Below, in pieces: positions 49,157-61,697 of a DNA stretch of 64,000 nt. The stretch comes from Collinsella aerofaciens (lineage in GTDB: Bacteria; Actinomycetota; Coriobacteriia; Coriobacteriales; Coriobacteriaceae). The notes beneath the pieces were generated by a model. It ran no database searches and had not been told where the DNA came from. It worked only from the letters and a program-made list of their open reading frames with translations. The DNA is taken from NCBI RefSeq assembly GCF_020181355.1, contig NZ_CP084004.1:496001-560000 (forward strand), in the 5' to 3' direction. Position 1 is the first letter of the stretch. The number at the start of each line of letters is the position of its first letter. The translations under genes and the position numbers were made by a program.

Positions 49157-49168
49157 ATGTTTAAACAA
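49157..49168 (+). promoter_or_regulatory. GTTTAAAC operator in the malQ promoter
   Basis: ATGTTTAAACAA with the palindrome TGTTTAAACA, about 10 nt before a TACAAT -10 box (49176-49181). Matches the sites around the TreR-like regulator gene at 58298-59017. Confidence 0.65.
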
Positions 49169-49266
49169 CATGTTTTACAATAAGCGTATCGAATCAGAAC
49201 ATCGGAGGCGGACTGCACACCCATCGGCAGGCCGACCCCACAACAAGAAGGTTGGTGAGCGCATTC

Positions 49267-50772
49267 ATGGAGCGTGCAAGCGGCGTCCTCATGCCCGTCT
49301 CATCTCTGCCCGGACCATACGGAATCGGCGGCTTTGGCTGGAATGCCTACGACTTCGTCGATTTTCTCGCCTCGTGCAAACAACATTACTGGCAGATTCT
49401 GCCCCTTACGACGACCAGCTATGGCGATTCGCCCTATCAGTCGTTCTCGGCCCGCGCAGGCAACCCCAGCTTTATCGACTTTGCCGAGCTTATCGAGGCA
49501 GGGTATCTGGAGCAGCGCGATATCGACGGCGTGTATCTGGGATCTGACCCCAGCAATGTCGACTACGGTGCTATCTTTGGCGGCCGCCGTCAGATTCTCG
49601 ACCGCGCCGCCGAGCGCTTTGCTGCCGACAAGCCGGCCGATTTCGATGACTTTATCCAGGCCAACGAGGACTGGCTCATCCCCTACTGTGAGTTCATGAC
49701 CGTCAAAGAGGAGTGCGGTCTCAAGGCGTTTTGGGAGTGGCCCGCGGAGCTCCGCACCCGCGGTGAGGCTTCCGCCAAGGTCTGCGCCGACCATCCGGCG
49801 CGTATGCTCTACCACCAGATGACGCAGTACTTCTTCGATCGCCAGTGGAGCCGCCTCAAGGCCTATGCCAACGAGCGCGACATTCTCATCATCGGCGACC
49901 TGCCCATCTATGTCTCGCGTGACTCCGTCGAGATGTGGGCGACGCCTGAGCTCTTTAAGATCGACGCCGCCGGCAATCCCGTGAGCGTCGCCGGCACGCC
50001 GCCCGACCAGTTCTCGGCCACCGGCCAGTACTGGGGCAACCCCATCTACGACTGGGACGCCATGGAGTCCGACGGCTTCTCCTGGTGGGAGGGCCGCATT
50101 CGCGCCGCCCTCGACATGTACGACGTCATCCGCCTGGATCACTTCCGCGGCTTCGAGGCCTATTGGGAGGTGCCGTTCTCCTCGCCCGATTCGTCCTACG
50201 GTTCGTGGACGCAGGGTCCCGGCCTCAAGTTCTTCAAGACGCTCGAGGAAAAGCTCGGCACGCTGCCCATCATCGCCGAGGACCTGGGCTTCCTCACCCC
50301 CGGCGTCATCGACATGCGCGACAACTCGGGCTTCCCCGGCATGAAGATCCTGCAGTTTGCCTTTGAGGGCACCAACTCGTACTACCTGCCGCATAACTAC
50401 ATCGCCAACACCGTCGCCTATGTGGGCACCCACGACAACGAGACGGCGCGCGGTTGGTTTGAGGGAACGGCCACCCCCCGTCAGCGCGAGCAGGCAGCCC
50501 TGTACACCCATCAGCAGGCCGGCGAACCCATGGCAGATGCACTCAACCGCACCATCGCCGCCAGCGTGAGCGACACGTGCATCTACACCATGCAGGACCT
50601 GCTCAACTTGGGCAACGAGGCGCGCATCAACACCCCTGCCACGCTGGGCGGCAACTGGACCTGGCGCATGCTCGACGGCGCCATCACCCGCGAGCTCGAG
50701 CACAAACTCACCGACTGGACCGAGACCTACTTCCGCATCCCGTCGGAAGCCGAAATCGAGCTTCCTCAATAG
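49267..50772 (+). CDS. malQ: 4-alpha-glucanotransferase (amylomaltase)
   Basis: 501 residues from MERASGVLMPVSSLPGPYG; upstream TTG and GTG codons are in frame, but GGTGAG 7 nt ahead favours the ATG. GH77 blocks: PYQSFSARAGNP, GDLPIYVS, RLDHFRGFEAYWEVP (nucleophile Asp), AEDLGFLTPGV (acid Glu) and GTHDNET. Moves glucan chains between maltodextrins, yielding glucose and longer chains for glgP, which follows 128 nt later. Confidence 0.96.
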   Translation: MERASGVLMPVSSLPGPYGIGGFGWNAYDFVDFLASCKQHYWQILPLTTTSYGDSPYQSFSARAGNPSFIDFAELIEAGYLEQRDIDGVYLGSDPSNVDYGAIFGGRRQILDRAAERFAADKPADFDDFIQANEDWLIPYCEFMTVKEECGLKAFWEWPAELRTRGEASAKVCADHPARMLYHQMTQYFFDRQWSRLKAYANERDILIIGDLPIYVSRDSVEMWATPELFKIDAAGNPVSVAGTPPDQFSATGQYWGNPIYDWDAMESDGFSWWEGRIRAALDMYDVIRLDHFRGFEAYWEVPFSSPDSSYGSWTQGPGLKFFKTLEEKLGTLPIIAEDLGFLTPGVIDMRDNSGFPGMKILQFAFEGTNSYYLPHNYIANTVAYVGTHDNETARGWFEGTATPRQREQAALYTHQQAGEPMADALNRTIAASVSDTCIYTMQDLLNLGNEARINTPATLGGNWTWRMLDGAITRELEHKLTDWTETYFRIPSEAEIELPQ

Positions 50773-50900
50773 GAGCTACCGCGCCCGACCCCTCCCCACC
50801 GTGCGGACGCGCTTGCTTTTCCCGCGTGAGGCCACCCCAATCCCCTCGCGCGGGCTTCTTATGAATTGCAGACATGAAACAACCCATCACAGGAGAAAAC

Positions 50901-53168
<2,268 letters not shown>

Positions 53169-53625: not shown

Positions 53626-54825
53626 CTAGATTAGGTTCTTGCCAGAGACCTTATCGAAGAGGTGGGTCGCGTTCTTCTCAAACTTGAACCAGATGGTGTC
53701 GCCAGCCTTGAGCGCGCCCTTGGCCTCGAGGTCGACGACGGGGATAATCAGGACAAACTGGCCGTCGGGAGCGGTCACGTGGACATGCTCGGTCGAGCCC
53801 ATGAGCTCGGTCACCTCGACGGTACCCTGGAGCGCGCCCTCCTCGCCCTTGTCGGCAAGCAGGATCTGCTCGGGACGCACGCCGGCCGTAATCTCCTTCA
53901 CGTCGCCGCCGTCCCAGTTGAGGGCAAGTTGAGCGCAAGTCTCGGGGGCGAGTGCCACGTTCATATCCTCGGTCTTGACGGTAAAGCCGTTGCCCGAGCG
54001 CACCAGCTGGGCATCGAAGAAGTTCATCTGCGGCACGCCGATGAAGCCGGCGACGAAGATGTTCGCGGGATGGTTGAAGACCTCCTGCGGCGTGGCGATC
54101 TGCTGGACGACGCCGTCCTTCATGACCACGATACGGTCGCCAAGGGTCATGGCCTCGGTCTGGTCGTGAGTAACATAAATGAACGTGCCCTTGATCTCGT
54201 GGCGCAGCTTAATGAGCTCGGCACGCATCTGGTTACGAAGCTTGGCGTCCAGGTTGGACAGCGGCTCGTCCATCAGGAAGACCTTGGGGTCACGCACGAT
54301 GGCGCGGCCGATAGCGACACGCTGGCGCTGGCCGCCGGAGAGCGCCTTGGGCTTACGGTCGAGGTACTCGGTAATGCCCAGAATCTCGGCAGCAGAGCGA
54401 ACCTTGCGGTCGATCTCGTCCTTGGGAACCTTCTTGAGCTCGAGCGTAAATGCCATGTTCTCGTACACCGTCATATTGGGGTACAGAGCGTAGCTCTGGA
54501 ACACCATGGCGATGTCGCGGTCCTTGGGCGCCACGTCGTTGACACGCTTGCCGTCGATGAGCACATCGCCCGAGGTAATGTCCTCCAGGCCGGCGACCAT
54601 GCGCATCGTCGTGGACTTACCGCAGCCAGAGGGGCCAACGAGGACGACGAACTCCTGGTCGTGAACGGTGAGGTTGAAGTCCTCTACAGCGAGCACACCG
54701 TCCTCGGTAACCTTGAGGTTGTGCTTCTTCTCCTCGGTCTTCTTCTTTTTGCCAAAGAAGCCTTTCTTTTTTGACTCGTTGTTGGGATACACCTTCTGAA
54801 CATGTTTGAGAACAATCTCGGCCAT
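53626..54825 (-). CDS. MsmK/MalK-type sugar ABC ATPase
   Basis: 399 residues. Walker A GPSGCGKST, Q-loop FQSYALYPNMTV, signature LSGGQRQRVAIGRA, Walker B VFLMDEPLSNLDAKLR, H-loop YVTHDQTEAM, and a C-terminal TOBE/OB regulatory region (about 270-399). Residues 14-45 are an unusual Lys-rich insert (SKKKGFFGKKKKTEEKK) between the first two strands, absent from most MalK proteins. Energises the permeases encoded upstream. Confidence 0.95.
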   Translation of the reverse strand: MAEIVLKHVQKVYPNNESKKKGFFGKKKKTEEKKHNLKVTEDGVLAVEDFNLTVHDQEFVVLVGPSGCGKSTTMRMVAGLEDITSGDVLIDGKRVNDVAPKDRDIAMVFQSYALYPNMTVYENMAFTLELKKVPKDEIDRKVRSAAEILGITEYLDRKPKALSGGQRQRVAIGRAIVRDPKVFLMDEPLSNLDAKLRNQMRAELIKLRHEIKGTFIYVTHDQTEAMTLGDRIVVMKDGVVQQIATPQEVFNHPANIFVAGFIGVPQMNFFDAQLVRSGNGFTVKTEDMNVALAPETCAQLALNWDGGDVKEITAGVRPEQILLADKGEEGALQGTVEVTELMGSTEHVHVTAPDGQFVLIIPVVDLEAKGALKAGDTIWFKFEKNATHLFDKVSGKNLI

Positions 54826-54893
54826 GTCTCTACCTTTCGATATGCGGCGCCGCGCTGAGGGGCGCCGCAGAAACTTGCAAAACAGTTACGGCA

Positions 54894-55733
54894 TTAGCCC
54901 TTGACGGCACCTGCCACCACGCCGTCGATGATGTACTTCTGACAGAGGATGTACATGATAACGATGGGGATAACGACCATCATGATGCAGGCCATCATGG
55001 GGCCGAGCTCGACGTGGCCGTAGCCGCCGCGGAAGTACTGAATCAAGATAGGAATGGTCTTGTACTTGGTGGAGTCGAGCGTAAGGTAGGGCAGCAGATA
55101 GTCGTTCCAGACCCACATGGTCTCGAGGATGCCGACCGAAAGATAGGTGGGCTTCATGATGGGAAGGACGATCTTAAAGAACACCTGGACCGGGTTGCAG
55201 CCATCAATCATGGCCGCCTCCTCGATCTCGAGCGGGATGTTCTTTACAAAACCGGCGAACATAAAGACCGCCAGGCCCGCGCCAAAGCCCAGATAGATAA
55301 AGCAGATGTTGAACGGCGTGTTAAAGCCGATGCGGTCCGCCAAATTGGACAGCGTGAACATGAGCATCTGGAACGGCACGACCATCGAGAACACGAACAG
55401 GTAATAGAAGAAGTTCGAGATCTTGTTGTTGACACGAACCACGTACCAAGCGCACATGGAGCAGCACACCAAGATCAGCACGACCGACGTGACCGTGATG
55501 ATGAGCGAGTACATAAATGCCGAGGCAAAGCCCTGCTCGTTAAGGGCGTGCATGTAGTTTGCGAGGCCGTTGAACGTCTCGGGCGTGAGCAGATCGAATG
55601 CCGTGGTGGTGCTGATTGCGGTCGCTTTCTTAAAAGAATTAAGCGCAATCATGAACACGGGGTAGATCCACGCGAGCGACAGGATCGTAAAGAAAATCGA
55701 GAGCGCGCGGTTGATAACCTTATCGCGTTTCAT
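54894..55733 (-). CDS. Sugar ABC permease, MalG-like
   Basis: 279 residues, six membrane helices. The EAA loop near residues 175-195 (EIEEAAMIDGCNPVQVFFKIVLPIMKP) contacts the ATPase. The start overlaps the upstream permease stop by 1 nt. Belongs to the CUT1 class. Confidence 0.95.
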   Translation of the reverse strand: MKRDKVINRALSIFFTILSLAWIYPVFMIALNSFKKATAISTTTAFDLLTPETFNGLANYMHALNEQGFASAFMYSLIITVTSVVLILVCCSMCAWYVVRVNNKISNFFYYLFVFSMVVPFQMLMFTLSNLADRIGFNTPFNICFIYLGFGAGLAVFMFAGFVKNIPLEIEEAAMIDGCNPVQVFFKIVLPIMKPTYLSVGILETMWVWNDYLLPYLTLDSTKYKTIPILIQYFRGGYGHVELGPMMACIMMVVIPIVIMYILCQKYIIDGVVAGAVKG

Positions 55734-56587
55734 TACTGCTGCACCTCCTTGGACCTCGTGGCCTTAAGCTGGATCATGGAAATAGCAACAACCAGGATGC
55801 AGAAGATAACCGCCTTGGCCTGACCGATGCCCTGCCATGCAATACCGGCACGCGAATAGAACGTGTTGTAGATGTTCAGGGCGAGCATCTCGGTGGAGTG
55901 CGCGGGGGCGCCGCCGGTAAGGGCGAGGTTCTGGTCGAACAGCTTAAAGCCGTTGGTGATGGACAGGAACAGGCAGATGGTGATGGTCGGCATCAGGTTA
56001 GGGACCTTAACCTTCCAAAACGTCTGCCATGCCGTGGCACCGTCGACCTTGGCGGCCTCGATGTAGTCGGACGGAATGGACTGCAGACCAGCGATGTAGA
56101 TGATCATCATGTAGCCGACCTGCTGCCACAGGGTCAGGATGATAAGGCCCCAGAAGCCAGCAGCAGAGTTAAGGGCGATGAGCTGGGCGCCGATGTTGGA
56201 GAGCAGGCAGTTGATCAAGATCTGCCAGATGTAGCCCAGCACGATGCCGCCGATCAGGTTCGGCATAAAGAAGATCGTACGGAAGATGTTAGTGCCCTTG
56301 AGCGCCTTGCGGGTGAGCGCCTGCGCGATGGCGAGGGCAATCACGTTGATGAGCACCGTCGACAGGAAGGCAAACGCCACCGTAAAGAAGAACGACGTGG
56401 TAAACTGCGAATCGGACAATGCGCGCACGTAGTTCTCGATACCGACAAAGTGCGCGTTGTTAATGGTAATAAACTGGCAGAACGAGAGATAGAAGCCCTG
56501 GATAAAGGGAATCACGAACCCGATCATAAACGCCAGGCACGTGGGCAGCATAAAGAGCGGCCACCAGCGCTTAAGTGCTTTGCCCAT
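55733..56587 (-). CDS. Sugar ABC permease, MalF-like
   Basis: 284 residues with six helices and the EAA loop DYIEAAKVDGATAWQTFWKVKVPNLMPT. Short form without the large periplasmic P2 loop of E. coli MalF. It lies between the binding-protein gene and the MalG-like gene. Confidence 0.95.
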   Translation of the reverse strand: MGKALKRWWPLFMLPTCLAFMIGFVIPFIQGFYLSFCQFITINNAHFVGIENYVRALSDSQFTTSFFFTVAFAFLSTVLINVIALAIAQALTRKALKGTNIFRTIFFMPNLIGGIVLGYIWQILINCLLSNIGAQLIALNSAAGFWGLIILTLWQQVGYMMIIYIAGLQSIPSDYIEAAKVDGATAWQTFWKVKVPNLMPTITICLFLSITNGFKLFDQNLALTGGAPAHSTEMLALNIYNTFYSRAGIAWQGIGQAKAVIFCILVVAISMIQLKATRSKEVQQ

Positions 56588-56674
56588 AAAAGGGTCCTTT
56601 CAATATGCAGGGGGCGGGCAAACCTACGTCTGCCCGCCCCCTGTCGCTAATCAGATAGCTTGGGCAGCAACTGC

Positions 56675-57991
56675 TTACTCGGAAGCAGCCTTCTCGGTCT
56701 TCCAGCCATCGACGAAGGCGTTCTTGACGCCGTCCCACTTGCTGTTATCGGCAGCGTAGGCAATCAGAGCCTGCTTGAGGTTCTTCTTCCACTCCTCGGA
56801 GGGAATGTAGACGAAGTCCCAAGCGACGGTCTTCTTGCCGTCCTTGGCCATGGCAACGGCCTGCTGCGAGAAGACGTTGGTGGTCTCCTTGGCGCTCTTG
56901 AACGGAGCGGTCAGACCCATCTTGTCGGCGATGATGCTGGTCGGGGTGTCAGCGGTGACGCACCAATACATGAAGTCCTCGGTGGCCTTCTGGGCATCCT
57001 CGGAAGCCTGGGAACTGACGCACCAATAGTTCTCGCCGCCGGAGCACAGGCCCTGGTTCTCCTCGCCGTCAACACCGATGTAGATGGGCATCATGCCAAT
57101 CTGATCGTCGGTCATGCCGGCCTTGACGAGGTCAGAGTAGGCCCAAGAGCCGTTCTGGTAGAAGACGGCCTTGCCGGTTGCGAACTCGTTGGTGGCGTCG
57201 TCGCCGGTCTTGGAAGCAAGCTGCGAAGGATCGCAGGTGGAGTCGGTGATGTACAGGTCGAAGATCTGCTTGTAGTTGTCGAGGAACTCACCCTTGATCT
57301 CGTCGTCCTCCTGGTTGTGCTCCTTCTCAAACTCGTAGTAGAGCGGCACGTTGGCAAGGTGGGTGGTGTAGCGCCAGCTGGAGGAGTCGTCCATGCCGGC
57401 GGAAGTGAAGGCACCCTCGACACCAAGCTCGTCCTTGCGGGCCTGGATGTCATCGGCACAAGCCTTCAGCTTGTCGAAGGAGTTGATGTCCTCGGCCTTG
57501 TAGCCAGCCTTCTCGAGCAGCTGCTTGTTGTAGATGATGCCGAAGCTCTCCTGGACCCAGTCGATACCCAGATCCTTGCCGTCGGACTGCAGAGCCAGGG
57601 AGTCGTCAATGAGCTCACCGCGGAGCTTGGTATCGGACAGGTCGGCGCAGTAATCCTTCCAGTTCTTAAGACCGGTGGGGCCGTTGACCTGGAACAGGGT
57701 CGGAGCGGAGCTCTTGGACATCTCGGACTTAAGCTTCTCCTCGTAGGTGTTGGAAGCGGCGGTCACGATCTTGACCTCGACGCCCTTCTCCTTCTTATAG
57801 GCCTTGGCGATCTCCTTCCACTCCTTGTCGACCTCGGGCTTGAATTGGAGGAAGTAGACCTCGGCAGCGTCACCAGAAGCAGAGGAGCCGGAGCCGGCAG
57901 AACCACCGCAACCCACGAGGCCCAGACCAAGAACTGCAGCCGCGGAACCAGCAAAGCCCAGGAACTGCCTTCTGCTCATTTCGTTCTTCAT
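56675..57991 (-). CDS. Sugar-binding lipoprotein of the ABC transporter
   Basis: 438 residues from MKNEMSRRQFLGFAG. Twin-Arg signal and a lipobox ending in LVGCGGS (Cys about residue 28), so a lipoprotein possibly exported by Tat. Extracellular solute-binding family 1: EVDKEWKEIAKAYKKEKGVEVKIVTA, VQESFGIIYNKQLLEKAGY, FATGKAVFYQNGSWAY. First gene of the operon, preceded by TTGTTTGAACAA and TTGTATAAACAA. Maltodextrin is the likely ligand given malQ and glgP upstream, but other oligosaccharides are possible. Confidence 0.93.
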   Translation of the reverse strand: MKNEMSRRQFLGFAGSAAAVLGLGLVGCGGSAGSGSSASGDAAEVYFLQFKPEVDKEWKEIAKAYKKEKGVEVKIVTAASNTYEEKLKSEMSKSSAPTLFQVNGPTGLKNWKDYCADLSDTKLRGELIDDSLALQSDGKDLGIDWVQESFGIIYNKQLLEKAGYKAEDINSFDKLKACADDIQARKDELGVEGAFTSAGMDDSSSWRYTTHLANVPLYYEFEKEHNQEDDEIKGEFLDNYKQIFDLYITDSTCDPSQLASKTGDDATNEFATGKAVFYQNGSWAYSDLVKAGMTDDQIGMMPIYIGVDGEENQGLCSGGENYWCVSSQASEDAQKATEDFMYWCVTADTPTSIIADKMGLTAPFKSAKETTNVFSQQAVAMAKDGKKTVAWDFVYIPSEEWKKNLKQALIAYAADNSKWDGVKNAFVDGWKTEKAASE

Positions 57992-58099
57992 TACAATCCA
58001 CCCTTTCACACCGTGGCGGCACCCTTTGCCGCCGCCTTCGGAGATTGGCTCGGGGACTTTGCCCCTTTTGCTGATTTGAACGATACGCTATTTGGCTAG

Positions 58100-58297: not shown

Positions 58298-59017
58298 CTA
58301 TCGCTTGGAATTGACGCGGTAATGGAAGATCTCGGGGTGTGTGCGAGTGTGCGTCACCTCAAACAAGATGCCATCCGAGGTGTACGACTGACTCTCCATG
58401 ACGGCAACGCAGTTGTATTTGCCGAGGTCAAGATAGCTGCAGTCCTCATCGTTGGCGAGCTCGACACTCACCGTACGACGGCTCGCCATCACTTTGACAC
58501 CGCGCTTGTGCTCCAGATAGCCGTAAATAGAATCTGCCGCGATCTCGGGAGTCAGGCCCTTGGCGATCGACGCCAAAAAATAGCCATGGTCCACTTGGCG
58601 CGCGTTGCCGTTGAGGCTTCGGACACGCACTACGCGAATCAACTCCTCGCCCACCTTAAAGCCCAGGTGACGAGAGAGTTGCTCGGTGCAAACCAGATGT
58701 TCGAAAGACTTAACGTCCGTCGATGCAACGGCATTGTTGCGCTTTGCAAACTCGCCAAACGACTCAACCTCTTCGAGTGCGCCCAACATGTCGGTTTCGC
58801 CCTTAAGCCAAATAACGCGCACGCCCTTGCCGTGTATGGGCTGCACAAACATCCCGTCGGCCAGCATGCTCAAAGCGCGGCGGACGGTATTGCGCGTGCA
58901 GCCAAATTCCGCGGTCAGCTCGGCTTCGGTTGGCAGCATCTCCTGAAACGCATAGGTCCCATTAATGATGCGCGAGCGTATTTCTCGGTAGATTCCTTCG
59001 TATATCGCTTTTGGCAT
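58298..59017 (-). CDS. TreR/MalR-like GntR regulator
   Basis: 239 residues. Winged helix (residues 5-70: IYREIRSRIINGTYAFQEMLPTEAELTAEFGCTRNTVRRALSML) and UTRA domain (85-239). AGAGGTGA precedes the start. Diverges from the PTS-HAD fusion. GTTTAAAC boxes lie in both promoters (59074-59081 and 59196-59203), and related sites precede malQ and the ABC operon. TreR of Bacillus uses TTGTATATACAA and responds to a sugar 6-phosphate; by analogy this one may sense maltose or trehalose phosphate. Confidence 0.93.
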   Translation of the reverse strand: MPKAIYEGIYREIRSRIINGTYAFQEMLPTEAELTAEFGCTRNTVRRALSMLADGMFVQPIHGKGVRVIWLKGETDMLGALEEVESFGEFAKRNNAVASTDVKSFEHLVCTEQLSRHLGFKVGEELIRVVRVRSLNGNARQVDHGYFLASIAKGLTPEIAADSIYGYLEHKRGVKVMASRRTVSVELANDEDCSYLDLGKYNCVAVMESQSYTSDGILFEVTHTRTHPEIFHYRVNSKR

Positions 59018-59073: not shown

Positions 59074-59081
59074 GTTTAAAC
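59074..59081. promoter_or_regulatory. GTTTAAAC operator (regulator promoter)
   Basis: TTGTTTAAACC, about 60 nt upstream of the regulator start. A weaker relative of the ACCRTTCRCCGAA motif (CGCTTCACCGATA) follows at 59086-59098. Confidence 0.6.
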
Positions 59082-59195: not shown

Positions 59196-59203
59196 GTTTA
59201 AAC
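59196..59203. promoter_or_regulatory. GTTTAAAC operator (PTS-HAD promoter)
   Basis: TTGTTTAAACG 44 nt before the fusion gene start, just after a TACAAT-like box (59181-59186), so a bound regulator would block transcription. Confidence 0.65.
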
Positions 59204-59246: not shown

Positions 59247-61697
59247 ATGCTGCAAAAAATCCAACGCTTTGGCGGGGCAATGTTCGCGCCCGCCATGCTG
59301 TTTTCTATATCAGGCCTCATGGTCGGCGTCTCCGCTCTCGCAACGACTGCGGACATCGTCGGCGATCTCGCCGTATACGGAACCCCTTGGTACGTTTTCT
59401 GGGCTATCATCCAGCGCGGCTCGTGGACGGTCTTTAAACGCCTCCCGCTCCTTTTTGCCGTAGCGCTGCCCATCGGTCTTGCCCAAAAACAACCGGCTCG
59501 TTGCTGCCTCGAGGCTCTCGTCGCCTATTTTGCCTACTGCTTCTTTTTGAGCGAGATCATTAAGCTGAGCGGAGACAACCTTGGACTTGAGTACCCGTCA
59601 TCTTTGACCTCCGCCAGCGGTATCACCGTCATCGACGGCATCAAGACGCTCGACACCGGCATTATCGGCCCGCTGGCGGTATCGGCAACCGTCGTTGCCA
59701 TCCATGACCGCTTCTACGATGCCAAGGTTCCCGATTGGCTCGGCACCTTCTCGGGCTCCTCGCTGGTCTACCTCATCAGCTTTTTTGCCGTGTTTGCCCT
59801 TGCTGCTATCTCGGCCGCCATCGTGCCCTACGTATACGATGTAACCGATACGCTGCGTCACGCGCTTGCAGGCGTCGGTCCCTTTGGCGTGGGCATCTTT
59901 GTCTTTTTAGAACGAGCACTCGAGCCCTTTGGCCTGCACCACCTGCTCTACATGCCGATCTACTACGACAACCTGGTCATTAACGACGGCATCTACGCCA
60001 CGTGGAGCAGTTTGCTCCCCATCCTCTCCCATAGCACGCGCCCCCTTAATGAGCTTGCGCCGTGGGCCGGTTTTACCGCCACCGGCTGGGTCAAGCTCTT
60101 TGGCCTTCCTGCCATCGCAGCTGCGTTCTACTCCACCGCAAAACCCGAGCGCCGCGCCGGCCTCAGGGTCATCCTTGTTCCCGCCATCATCGCCTCGGTG
60201 GTTTGCGGCGTTACCGAGCCACTCGAGTTTCTCTTTATGTTCACCCACCCCGGGCTCTTTTTGCTCTACGCCGTCTTATCGTCTTGCCTTGCCACAGCCA
60301 TGAATCTCTTTGGCATCGTCGGCATCTTCTCGGGCGGCCTCATGGAGATGGCAGCCTTCAACTTTATTCCGCTCATGCGCACGCATGCCGGTGCCTATCT
60401 TTTGGCGCTCGGTATCGGCCTTGCCTTTAGCCTCATCTTTTTTGTTAGTTTTCGAGCACTCATCTTGGTCTATGACCTTAAGACTCCGGGCCGCGAGGAT
60501 CATGTCGTCAATCGCGCGGCAATCGATTGTTTAACGGGAAGCGACTTTGCCAAAGAGCAATCTCCCAATGACGAGGTCAATAGTCGATCCGATCAAGATC
60601 ACGTCCTCGCTGAGCGGGTAATTCAGCTTTTAGGTGGCGTTGGCAATATCGTGGGCGCAACCAACTGCGCCACGCGCCTGCGCGTCGAGGTCGCAGACCC
60701 TTCCATCGTTGCAGATAACGCGTCGTTTGTCGCGGTGGGCGCCAAGGGCCTCATCATTACGGGCAAGACCGCCCAGGTGGTCATCGGCATCTCCGTTCCC
60801 CGCGTTAAAGAGCATTTTGACCAGATCATGGGCCTCGAGCCGGAATTTGTGCCCACCACCTCGGCCTCCCCTGCCGCCAGCGCAGCCCATAAGCGCGGCG
60901 ATATTTGCTTCTTCGATATCGACGGAACGCTCGCCTGGCAAGACCCCAGGCTCGCCCAAGACCTTCCCGAAGACGAGCGGGACCTCTCCCCCTATCCCAA
61001 CGAGGCGGTTTCGCAGGCAATCCGCGAGTTTGTCGCCAACGGCAACATGGCCTTTATCTGCACGGGACGTACCCTCAGCTGCATCCACCCCAAACTTCTT
61101 GAGCTGCCTTGGACCGGCATCGTCTGTCTTGCGGGCGGTTACGCCGAGATCAACGGACACGCAATTCGCGATCTGTCGATGACGCCCAGCATGCTGCAGC
61201 GTCTTGCCCCCTACCTTGAGCAATCGGGCGAGGTCATCCGCTTTGAGGGCCTCAACGGCGTCGTGCGCATGAGTGCCGATGCGCCCGATGCTCCCGGATA
61301 CGCGCGCACCCTGGGCGACGCAGTCACGCAGCTGCAACATTACAGTGTCTACAAGATCTTGATGTCTACATCGCTCGCCAACCACATCGCTCAAGATAAG
61401 GCACTTGAGCCGCTGCTGTGCTTTAACGAGCTCGAACTCGAGGTAACCGAAATCTCGCCCCGCGAATGCACGAAGCGCGGGGGCATCCAGTCTGTACTCG
61501 ACGCCCTCGATCCCCACCACGGAACCGTATACGGCATCGGCGACGCCAGCAATGACGTCTCGCTGATGAACGCCGTCGATGTCGGTATCGCCATGGGCAA
61601 TGCACCGGACTATCTCAAGGATAAGGCCGATTACGTGACCGACACCGTCGATCACGACGGTGTCGTTGCGGCGCTCGAGCATTTTAGGCTGATTTAG
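59247..61697 (+). CDS. PTS IIC-IIB fused to a HAD-family phosphatase
   Basis: 816 residues; GGAAGG precedes the start. Residues 1-425: glucose/maltose-type IIC, ten or so helices (RFGGAMFAPAMLFSISGLMVG, GVTEPLEFLFMF). Residues 450-530: IIB with phospho-Cys474 in VGATNCATRLRVEV. Residues 552-816: Cof-type HAD phosphatase with Asp557 and Asp559 in FFDIDGTLAWQ, and GDASNDVSLMNAVDVGIAMGNA. No IIA domain. I infer import with phosphorylation followed by dephosphorylation, as Enterococcus MalT and the separate phosphatase MapP do for maltose. Sugar not proven. Confidence 0.92.
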   Translation: MLQKIQRFGGAMFAPAMLFSISGLMVGVSALATTADIVGDLAVYGTPWYVFWAIIQRGSWTVFKRLPLLFAVALPIGLAQKQPARCCLEALVAYFAYCFFLSEIIKLSGDNLGLEYPSSLTSASGITVIDGIKTLDTGIIGPLAVSATVVAIHDRFYDAKVPDWLGTFSGSSLVYLISFFAVFALAAISAAIVPYVYDVTDTLRHALAGVGPFGVGIFVFLERALEPFGLHHLLYMPIYYDNLVINDGIYATWSSLLPILSHSTRPLNELAPWAGFTATGWVKLFGLPAIAAAFYSTAKPERRAGLRVILVPAIIASVVCGVTEPLEFLFMFTHPGLFLLYAVLSSCLATAMNLFGIVGIFSGGLMEMAAFNFIPLMRTHAGAYLLALGIGLAFSLIFFVSFRALILVYDLKTPGREDHVVNRAAIDCLTGSDFAKEQSPNDEVNSRSDQDHVLAERVIQLLGGVGNIVGATNCATRLRVEVADPSIVADNASFVAVGAKGLIITGKTAQVVIGISVPRVKEHFDQIMGLEPEFVPTTSASPAASAAHKRGDICFFDIDGTLAWQDPRLAQDLPEDERDLSPYPNEAVSQAIREFVANGNMAFICTGRTLSCIHPKLLELPWTGIVCLAGGYAEINGHAIRDLSMTPSMLQRLAPYLEQSGEVIRFEGLNGVVRMSADAPDAPGYARTLGDAVTQLQHYSVYKILMSTSLANHIAQDKALEPLLCFNELELEVTEISPRECTKRGGIQSVLDALDPHHGTVYGIGDASNDVSLMNAVDVGIAMGNAPDYLKDKADYVTDTVDHDGVVAALEHFRLI

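Follow-up and report, generated by a model that had tools for sequence, protein, structure and literature searches.

A sugar phosphotransferase permease carrying its own HAD-type phosphatase in Collinsella: a probable route to unphosphorylated alpha-glucoside for MalQ and GlgP

Permeases of the phosphotransferase system (PTS) are known for delivering phosphorylated sugars. In alpha-glucoside systems such as MalB/MalH, the permease is accompanied by a phospho-alpha-glucosidase, and partner enzymes of this kind are assigned to glycoside hydrolase family 4 (GH4). The present work concerns a gene of Collinsella aerofaciens that encodes a permease with IIC and IIB domains continued, on the same polypeptide, by a HAD phosphatase. 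It lies in a window of 64,000 nucleotides (the whole stretch analysed; contig NZ_CP084004.1, positions 496,001 to 560,000) of a 2.28 Mb genome, here called G000. Domain content and genome comparison indicate that its product is probably a phosphoenolpyruvate (PEP)-driven importer of an alpha-glucoside, most likely maltose, which would dephosphorylate the sugar on the same chain and pass it on free to MalQ and GlgP, enzymes that act on alpha-1,4-glucans and are encoded in the same cluster.

The logic of such a route is known from Enterococcus faecalis, where the PTS permease MalT makes maltose 6'-phosphate and the phosphatase MapP frees maltose (Mokhtari et al. 2013, as cited in the available parts of PMC3737437 and PMC3737153). 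The first-pass annotation had drawn this parallel, which holds for the logic: PTS import followed by dephosphorylation, supplying enzymes that need unphosphorylated sugar. However, MapP belongs to the endonuclease/exonuclease/phosphatase family and is a chain of its own (PMC3737437, same parts), whereas Collinsella has an unrelated HAD on the same chain; besides, the next step in E. faecalis is a maltose phosphorylase, not found in the 27 Collinsella genomes searched for it, and the cluster here has MalQ and GlgP instead. The nearer parallel is the MalQ/GlgP route of Streptococcus mutans, in which GlgP is reported to form glucose 1-phosphate from maltose in the presence of MalQ, while a MapP-like phosphatase has been suggested as maltose supplier (PMC3737437, as far as the available text goes). 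The route proposed in the same text around malT-SMU_2046c (maltose PTS, phosphatase, MalQ, GlgP) resembles the one suggested here for Collinsella, but its phosphatase is separate, MapP-like and itself unconfirmed in that paper, with no HAD and no fusion. AglA/AglB and GlvC/GlvA include the same kind of IICB, but their sugar phosphate is cleaved by a phospho-alpha-glucosidase and not dephosphorylated (PMC5309279, available part). Sugar phosphatases of the HAD-IIB group, for example BT4131 (1ymq), share fold and catalytic motifs with the fused domain, although BT4131 stands alone whereas the fused HAD is joined to a transporter. A literature search, thin on subscription journals, returned no description of a HAD in this role or of a HAD-permease fusion, and the accessible part of PMC11046441 contains nothing on MapP. 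Against the known logic of MalT/MapP, what was not found described is a HAD as the phosphatase and its attachment to the permease.

The fused gene is built as follows (positions refer to the window):

59247-61697, + strand: fused IIC-IIB-HAD gene, 816 aa, a single intact open reading frame (ORF) from ATG to stop
59277-60281, + strand: IIC membrane domain (Pfam PTS_EIIC, aa 11-345, E 7.8e-39; structural matches PtsG and bcMalT)
60597-60836, + strand: IIB domain, about aa 451-530 (Pfam PTS_EIIB, aa 457-488, E 1.6e-11)
60666-60668, + strand: codon of the IIB phospho-acceptor Cys474
60837-60902, + strand: linker, aa 531-552, rich in Ala, Pro and Ser (model confidence mostly low; omega 0.58)
60903-61694, + strand: HAD-IIB (Cof-type) phosphatase domain, aa 553-816 (Pfam Hydrolase_3, aa 555-810, E 1.5e-27)
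Asp557, Thr606, Lys743 and Asp766/Asp770 of the fused protein: HAD catalytic residues

PTS_EIIC, PTS_EIIB and Hydrolase_3 each score above the Pfam cut-off (Hydrolase_3 with 97 bits against 20.9), and in the structure model the helices continue past the Pfam IIC stretch up to about aa 408. Cys474, DIDGT (557-561), CTGR (605-608), Lys743 and GDASND (765-770) are kept in 21 of 21 fused proteins, the IIB motif reading CATRLR in 19, CGTRLR in one and CATRLS in one. The description given at first pass, namely IIC, IIB with Cys474 and a complete HAD on one chain, is thus confirmed by domains and motifs. With both domains above cut-off and the active cysteine of IIB present, the transporter part belongs to the PTS IICB proteins of the glucose superfamily. 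Within them, TIGR02005 (alpha-glucoside IIBC) scores best over aa 2-528, with 516 bits under a curated cut-off of 607; locus L026 scores 512 bits, and L030, an unfused relative paired with a HAD, passes with 622. The alpha-glucoside label of the fused transporter is therefore a best match, short of strict TIGR02005 membership. Pfam finds no IIA domain in the fused protein, and the genome carries four EIIA_1 domains at other places.

The phosphatase part is placed in HAD-IIB by its Hydrolase_3 score, its catalytic motifs and its fold (structure comparison). Its best model over aa 553-810, TIGR00099 (Cof-type HAD-IIB), gives 92 bits under a curated cut-off of 137, which the separate HADs paired with unfused transporters do not reach either (L030, 93.5 bits; L029, 90.8). 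It lies outside the MapP family, since in Pfam it matches Hydrolase_3 alone, without any endonuclease/exonuclease/phosphatase match. That the HAD domain might be inactive or a passenger is extremely improbable: its motifs are intact in 21/21, its omega of 0.10 denotes purifying selection, as for IIC and IIB, and 19 unfused pairs, described below, show the same partnership. Motifs and omega lead us to reject a decayed passenger.

The full 816-aa fusion, without internal stops, is present in 21 of 43 Collinsella genomes including G000 (identity 83-100%). It also occurs in 19 of 19 related loci from Collinsella records of genome_contigs, partly from the same genomes, in a scan of all phyla by short exact peptides of the fused protein that detects close relatives only. 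Because the same stop-free fusion recurs across Collinsella genomes, an assembly, frameshift or gene-joining error is ruled out, and the doubt raised at first pass, that the fusion might be peculiar to this assembly or due to sequencing, is removed. Outside Collinsella no full-length fusion was found among 148 relative genomes (best 6 candidates per genome scored), nor in 396 class genomes or 396 phylum genomes (best 2 per genome); these samples overlap, and weaker copies may be missed in the 148-genome and class sets. Only one of 615 matching plasmid records covers at least 80% of the query, and it is from Collinsella. Within what was searched, in which Bacillota were not profile-searched, the fusion holds as a Collinsella-only trait. 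As for the conservation in Coriobacteriia that the first-pass annotation had proposed to look for, the fusion recurs within the genus and, in these searches, was not found beyond it; another family of the order has IIBC and HAD as two genes.

As a separate observation, the C. aerofaciens record NZ_OY725717.1 (899,693 bp, listed as 'plasmid 6') carries the cluster, seen from glgP to the fused gene, among chromosomal-looking neighbours, and is probably a mislabelled chromosome piece.

The usual partner of such an IICB in Coriobacteriales is GH4. Of the close relatives of the transporter that lack the fusion, 66 in all, 44 adjoin a GH4 gene, 19 directly precede a separate HAD gene and 3 have neither, and all 19 two-gene pairs (IIBC plus HAD) belong to one other family of the order. 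The 148-genome set gave 42 of these transporters (E <1e-100), for which the coordinates place a GH4 match within about 1.1 kb of 40 and a HAD gene beside two (G144 and G135); the class genomes added 24, with HAD next door in 17, GH4 in 4 and neither in 3. The GH4 protein of L033 is a Glyco_hydro_4 protein whose top NCBIfam hit, an alpha-galactosidase model, stays far below cut-off. It is 66% and 63% identical to proteins of Cetobacterium and Companilactobacillus that are annotated as 6-phospho-alpha-glucosidase and whose genes adjoin an alpha-glucoside IIBC gene. The GH4 partners appear 6-phospho-alpha-glucosidase-like. In the pairs, the distance from transporter stop to HAD Asp codon is 146-230 nt in 14 of 19 and 17-95 nt in the other 5, and the two genes overlap in G135 and G328; this spacing suggests a series of states.

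Some side observations were made on the unfused loci. One of the three transporters with neither partner is a broken gene (L176:2490-4226, a second copy in G391), with the alpha-glucoside IIBC in two ORFs, an apparently whole GntR gene alongside and a HAD-paired copy elsewhere in the genome. A gene for a YdjM-like membrane protein directly follows the separate HAD gene at L162:5133-5768, with a similar start at L163:890-1525. In Aerococcus tenax (CP127381.1; L226:6899-7672), a cluster with a 6-phospho-alpha-glucosidase also has an annotated HAD family hydrolase, three genes after its alpha-glucoside IIBC.

The neighbours of the fused gene are the following, ABC standing for ATP-binding cassette:

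49252-50772, + strand: malQ, GH77 4-alpha-glucanotransferase, proposed user of the free sugar (start codon provisional)
50874-53168, + strand: glgP, alpha-glucan phosphorylase (TIGR02093, 872 bits)
53626-58009, - strand: sugar ABC importer (ATPase, two permeases, binding protein); malK/G/F/E are convenience labels, not a substrate assignment
58298-59017, - strand: divergent GntR/UTRA regulator, TreR-like (161 bits against TIGR02404, under its cut-off of 212)

The binding protein of the importer was recognised by Pfam, with a weak MalE match below cut-off, and its other components by how a near-identical record is annotated. Within 15-20 kb around hand-chosen, not random, loci, malQ (with glgP, ABC genes or both) was found near 13 of 14 loci of the HAD type (fused or paired), vs none of 18 loci of the GH4 type at more than 60% identity, L213 having a weak 35% match at the stretch edge. 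As the HAD stands where relatives have GH4, and HAD-type but not GH4-type loci are linked to malQ, the comparison indicates that the phosphatase replaced the phospho-glucosidase in a maltose/MalQ/GlgP setting. The same facts support the route suggested at first pass, in which a sugar taken up by the PTS is dephosphorylated at once and reaches MalQ and GlgP in free form. Maltose phosphorylase (GH65) was found in 0 of 44 genomes including G000 (27 of them Collinsella), in a search that did not extend to the genomes with pairs in the other family and in which 4 of 14 control genomes matched; G000 has no trehalose-6-phosphate hydrolase above cut-off.

Three operator-like sites tie malQ to the fused gene in the window:

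49159-49166: putative operator GTTTAAAC before malQ, with a full palindrome TGTTTAAACA at 49158-49167
59074-59081: putative operator GTTTAAAC on the GntR side
59196-59203: putative operator GTTTAAAC ending 43 bp upstream of the fused gene

These are all the occurrences of GTTTAAAC in the window (starting at 49159, 59074 and 59196; 0.31 expected, and 1 of 100 shuffles reaches 3), one before malQ and two in the intergenic stretch that separates the fused gene from the GntR gene, so that the operator sharing noted at first pass stands for these putative sites. Both intergenic sites are kept in 6 of 7 fused genomes compared, one being altered in G038. Simple shuffles predict 1.3 sites in the HAD-type loci, where 10 were found (in only 8/14 loci), vs 2 sites for 1.95 expected in the GH4-type loci (2/18 loci). 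Among the latter is L211 (G348), with the site right before a transporter that sits beside the HAD-type group in the tree. The palindrome TTGTwCGwACAA or a near form appears in 13/18 GH4-type loci vs 0/14 of the HAD type. Since G000 has 15 matches to TGTTTAAAC vs 9 for the backwards control, single sites mean little. In the proposed scheme, malQ, glgP and the fused gene are probably under the same GntR repressor.

In phylogenetic trees, fused and paired HADs fall into a single clade apart from 20 other HADs (100/99). The transporter tree of 21 fusions and 42 unfused rows joins the fusions with the two pairs of G144 and G135 (99/99); a second one, which took in the 24 new rows and 7 fusions, groups 26 HAD-type rows with the broken gene of L176 (98% SH-aLRT), beside one GH4-type row and two rows with neither partner. 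A single change from GH4 to HAD is the simplest reading. On the position of the fusion, the transporter tree nests it within the pairs next to G287, by a long-branch join flagged by the program, whereas in the HAD tree the fused HADs are sister to all paired ones. Because the two trees disagree, only the single change is claimed, as that simplest reading, and a path from pair to fusion is not claimed as proven. Among the nearest HAD-tree relatives are two ORFs (L101:529-2292 in G046; L106:1387-2985 in G057) that combine Pfam PRK and Hydrolase_3, a HAD-IIB following a phosphoribulokinase/uridine-kinase-like domain.

In the proposed mechanism, IIC would bring the alpha-glucoside, most likely maltose, inward; a separate glucose-type IIA would charge Cys474 of IIB, which would phosphorylate the sugar at 6'. 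The tethered HAD would then hydrolyse the sugar phosphate, with free maltose and phosphate in the cytoplasm as net products at the cost of one PEP, and MalQ and GlgP would convert the free sugar to glucose and glucose 1-phosphate. Sugar phosphate left over could plausibly induce the TreR-like GntR. That the phosphatase acts on the sugar phosphate brought in, that maltose is the substrate, any channelling, the repressor and the inducer are what we infer from sequence comparison. The complete scheme, with import of unmodified sugar on one chain, a sugar phosphate that exists only locally, free maltose for MalQ/GlgP and a leak that sets the GntR switch, is put forward tentatively, somewhat short of an even chance.

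Several points weigh against the PEP-driven import of free maltose. Cof-type HADs are often promiscuous. The arrangement of the domains in the structure model is uncertain (pTM 0.49), the ABC importer of the cluster could supply MalQ by itself, the pair of G144 has neither malQ nor glgP nearby, and the trees conflict on the order of events. Many MalQ enzymes take maltose as acceptor only, their smallest donor being maltotriose, with S. mutans MalQ as an exception (PMC3737437, available part); the route from PTS through phosphatase and MalQ to GlgP fits provided that the Collinsella enzyme behaves like that of S. mutans or has a primer available. A GH4 gene exists somewhere in 18 of 21 fusion genomes, G000 having two (G000:C1:47901 and 1238961), and might use the sugar phosphate; five (G004, G007, G028, G040 and G042) retain a separate GH4-type system of the same transporter family. 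Such a GH4 could be the catabolic enzyme if the HAD served instead as a safety valve or signal limiter that curbs sugar-phosphate stress or ends GntR induction. Tethering would let it act at the source, and a Bacillus regulator of the TreR type senses trehalose 6-phosphate. This role is nevertheless quite improbable as the main one, as no GH4 adjoins the HAD-type transporters, the HAD occupies the gene position of the catabolic enzyme, and no GH4 at all was found in three of the 21 fusion genomes (G010, G012 and G030).

The substrate is the weakest point, because the fused IIC is strongly diverged (branch 1.43); in 21/21, LIP is changed to LEP and EFTF to EFLF, and the substrate may have shifted. 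The same chemistry could then free another sugar, such as isomaltose, trehalose, sucrose isomers or glucose, as would agree with the TreR-like regulator and with a TIGR02005 subfamily that spans alpha-glucosides generally; the related AglA/AglB and GlvC/GlvA serve isomaltose, turanose, maltulose and others (PMC5309279, available part). This is unlikely in view of the malQ linkage at 13/14 loci, the operator-like sites in common and the action of the MalQ and GlgP families on alpha-1,4-glucans.

A permease with its own phosphatase would behave as an ordinary active transporter fuelled by PEP. Within Coriobacteriales the transporter occurs next to GH4, with a HAD gene at some distance, with a HAD gene that overlaps it and with the HAD fused, a set of states that makes the route change and the fusion directly testable. 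The matter is relevant to the use of starch sugars by the gut genus Collinsella, in which the only annotation seen for the gene is 'PTS transporter subunit EIIC' (RefSeq, in one near-identical annotated record).

Further copies of the operator-like site were observed in G000 outside the window. One lies 18 bp before the start of a ROK-family kinase (L200:2067), possibly a glucokinase, in 4 of 5 genomes checked (G000, G019, G030 and G038, not seen in G010); the kinase is not claimed as a regulon member, as an earlier start codon would turn the site into coding sequence for MFKR. Two GTTTAAAC sites precede a mannose-type PTS IIAB gene (L124:1501-1673; G000:C1:928224-928396), a pair kept in 5 of 5 fusion genomes checked (G000, G010, G019, G030 and G038), and this gene is a possible further member of the GntR regulon.
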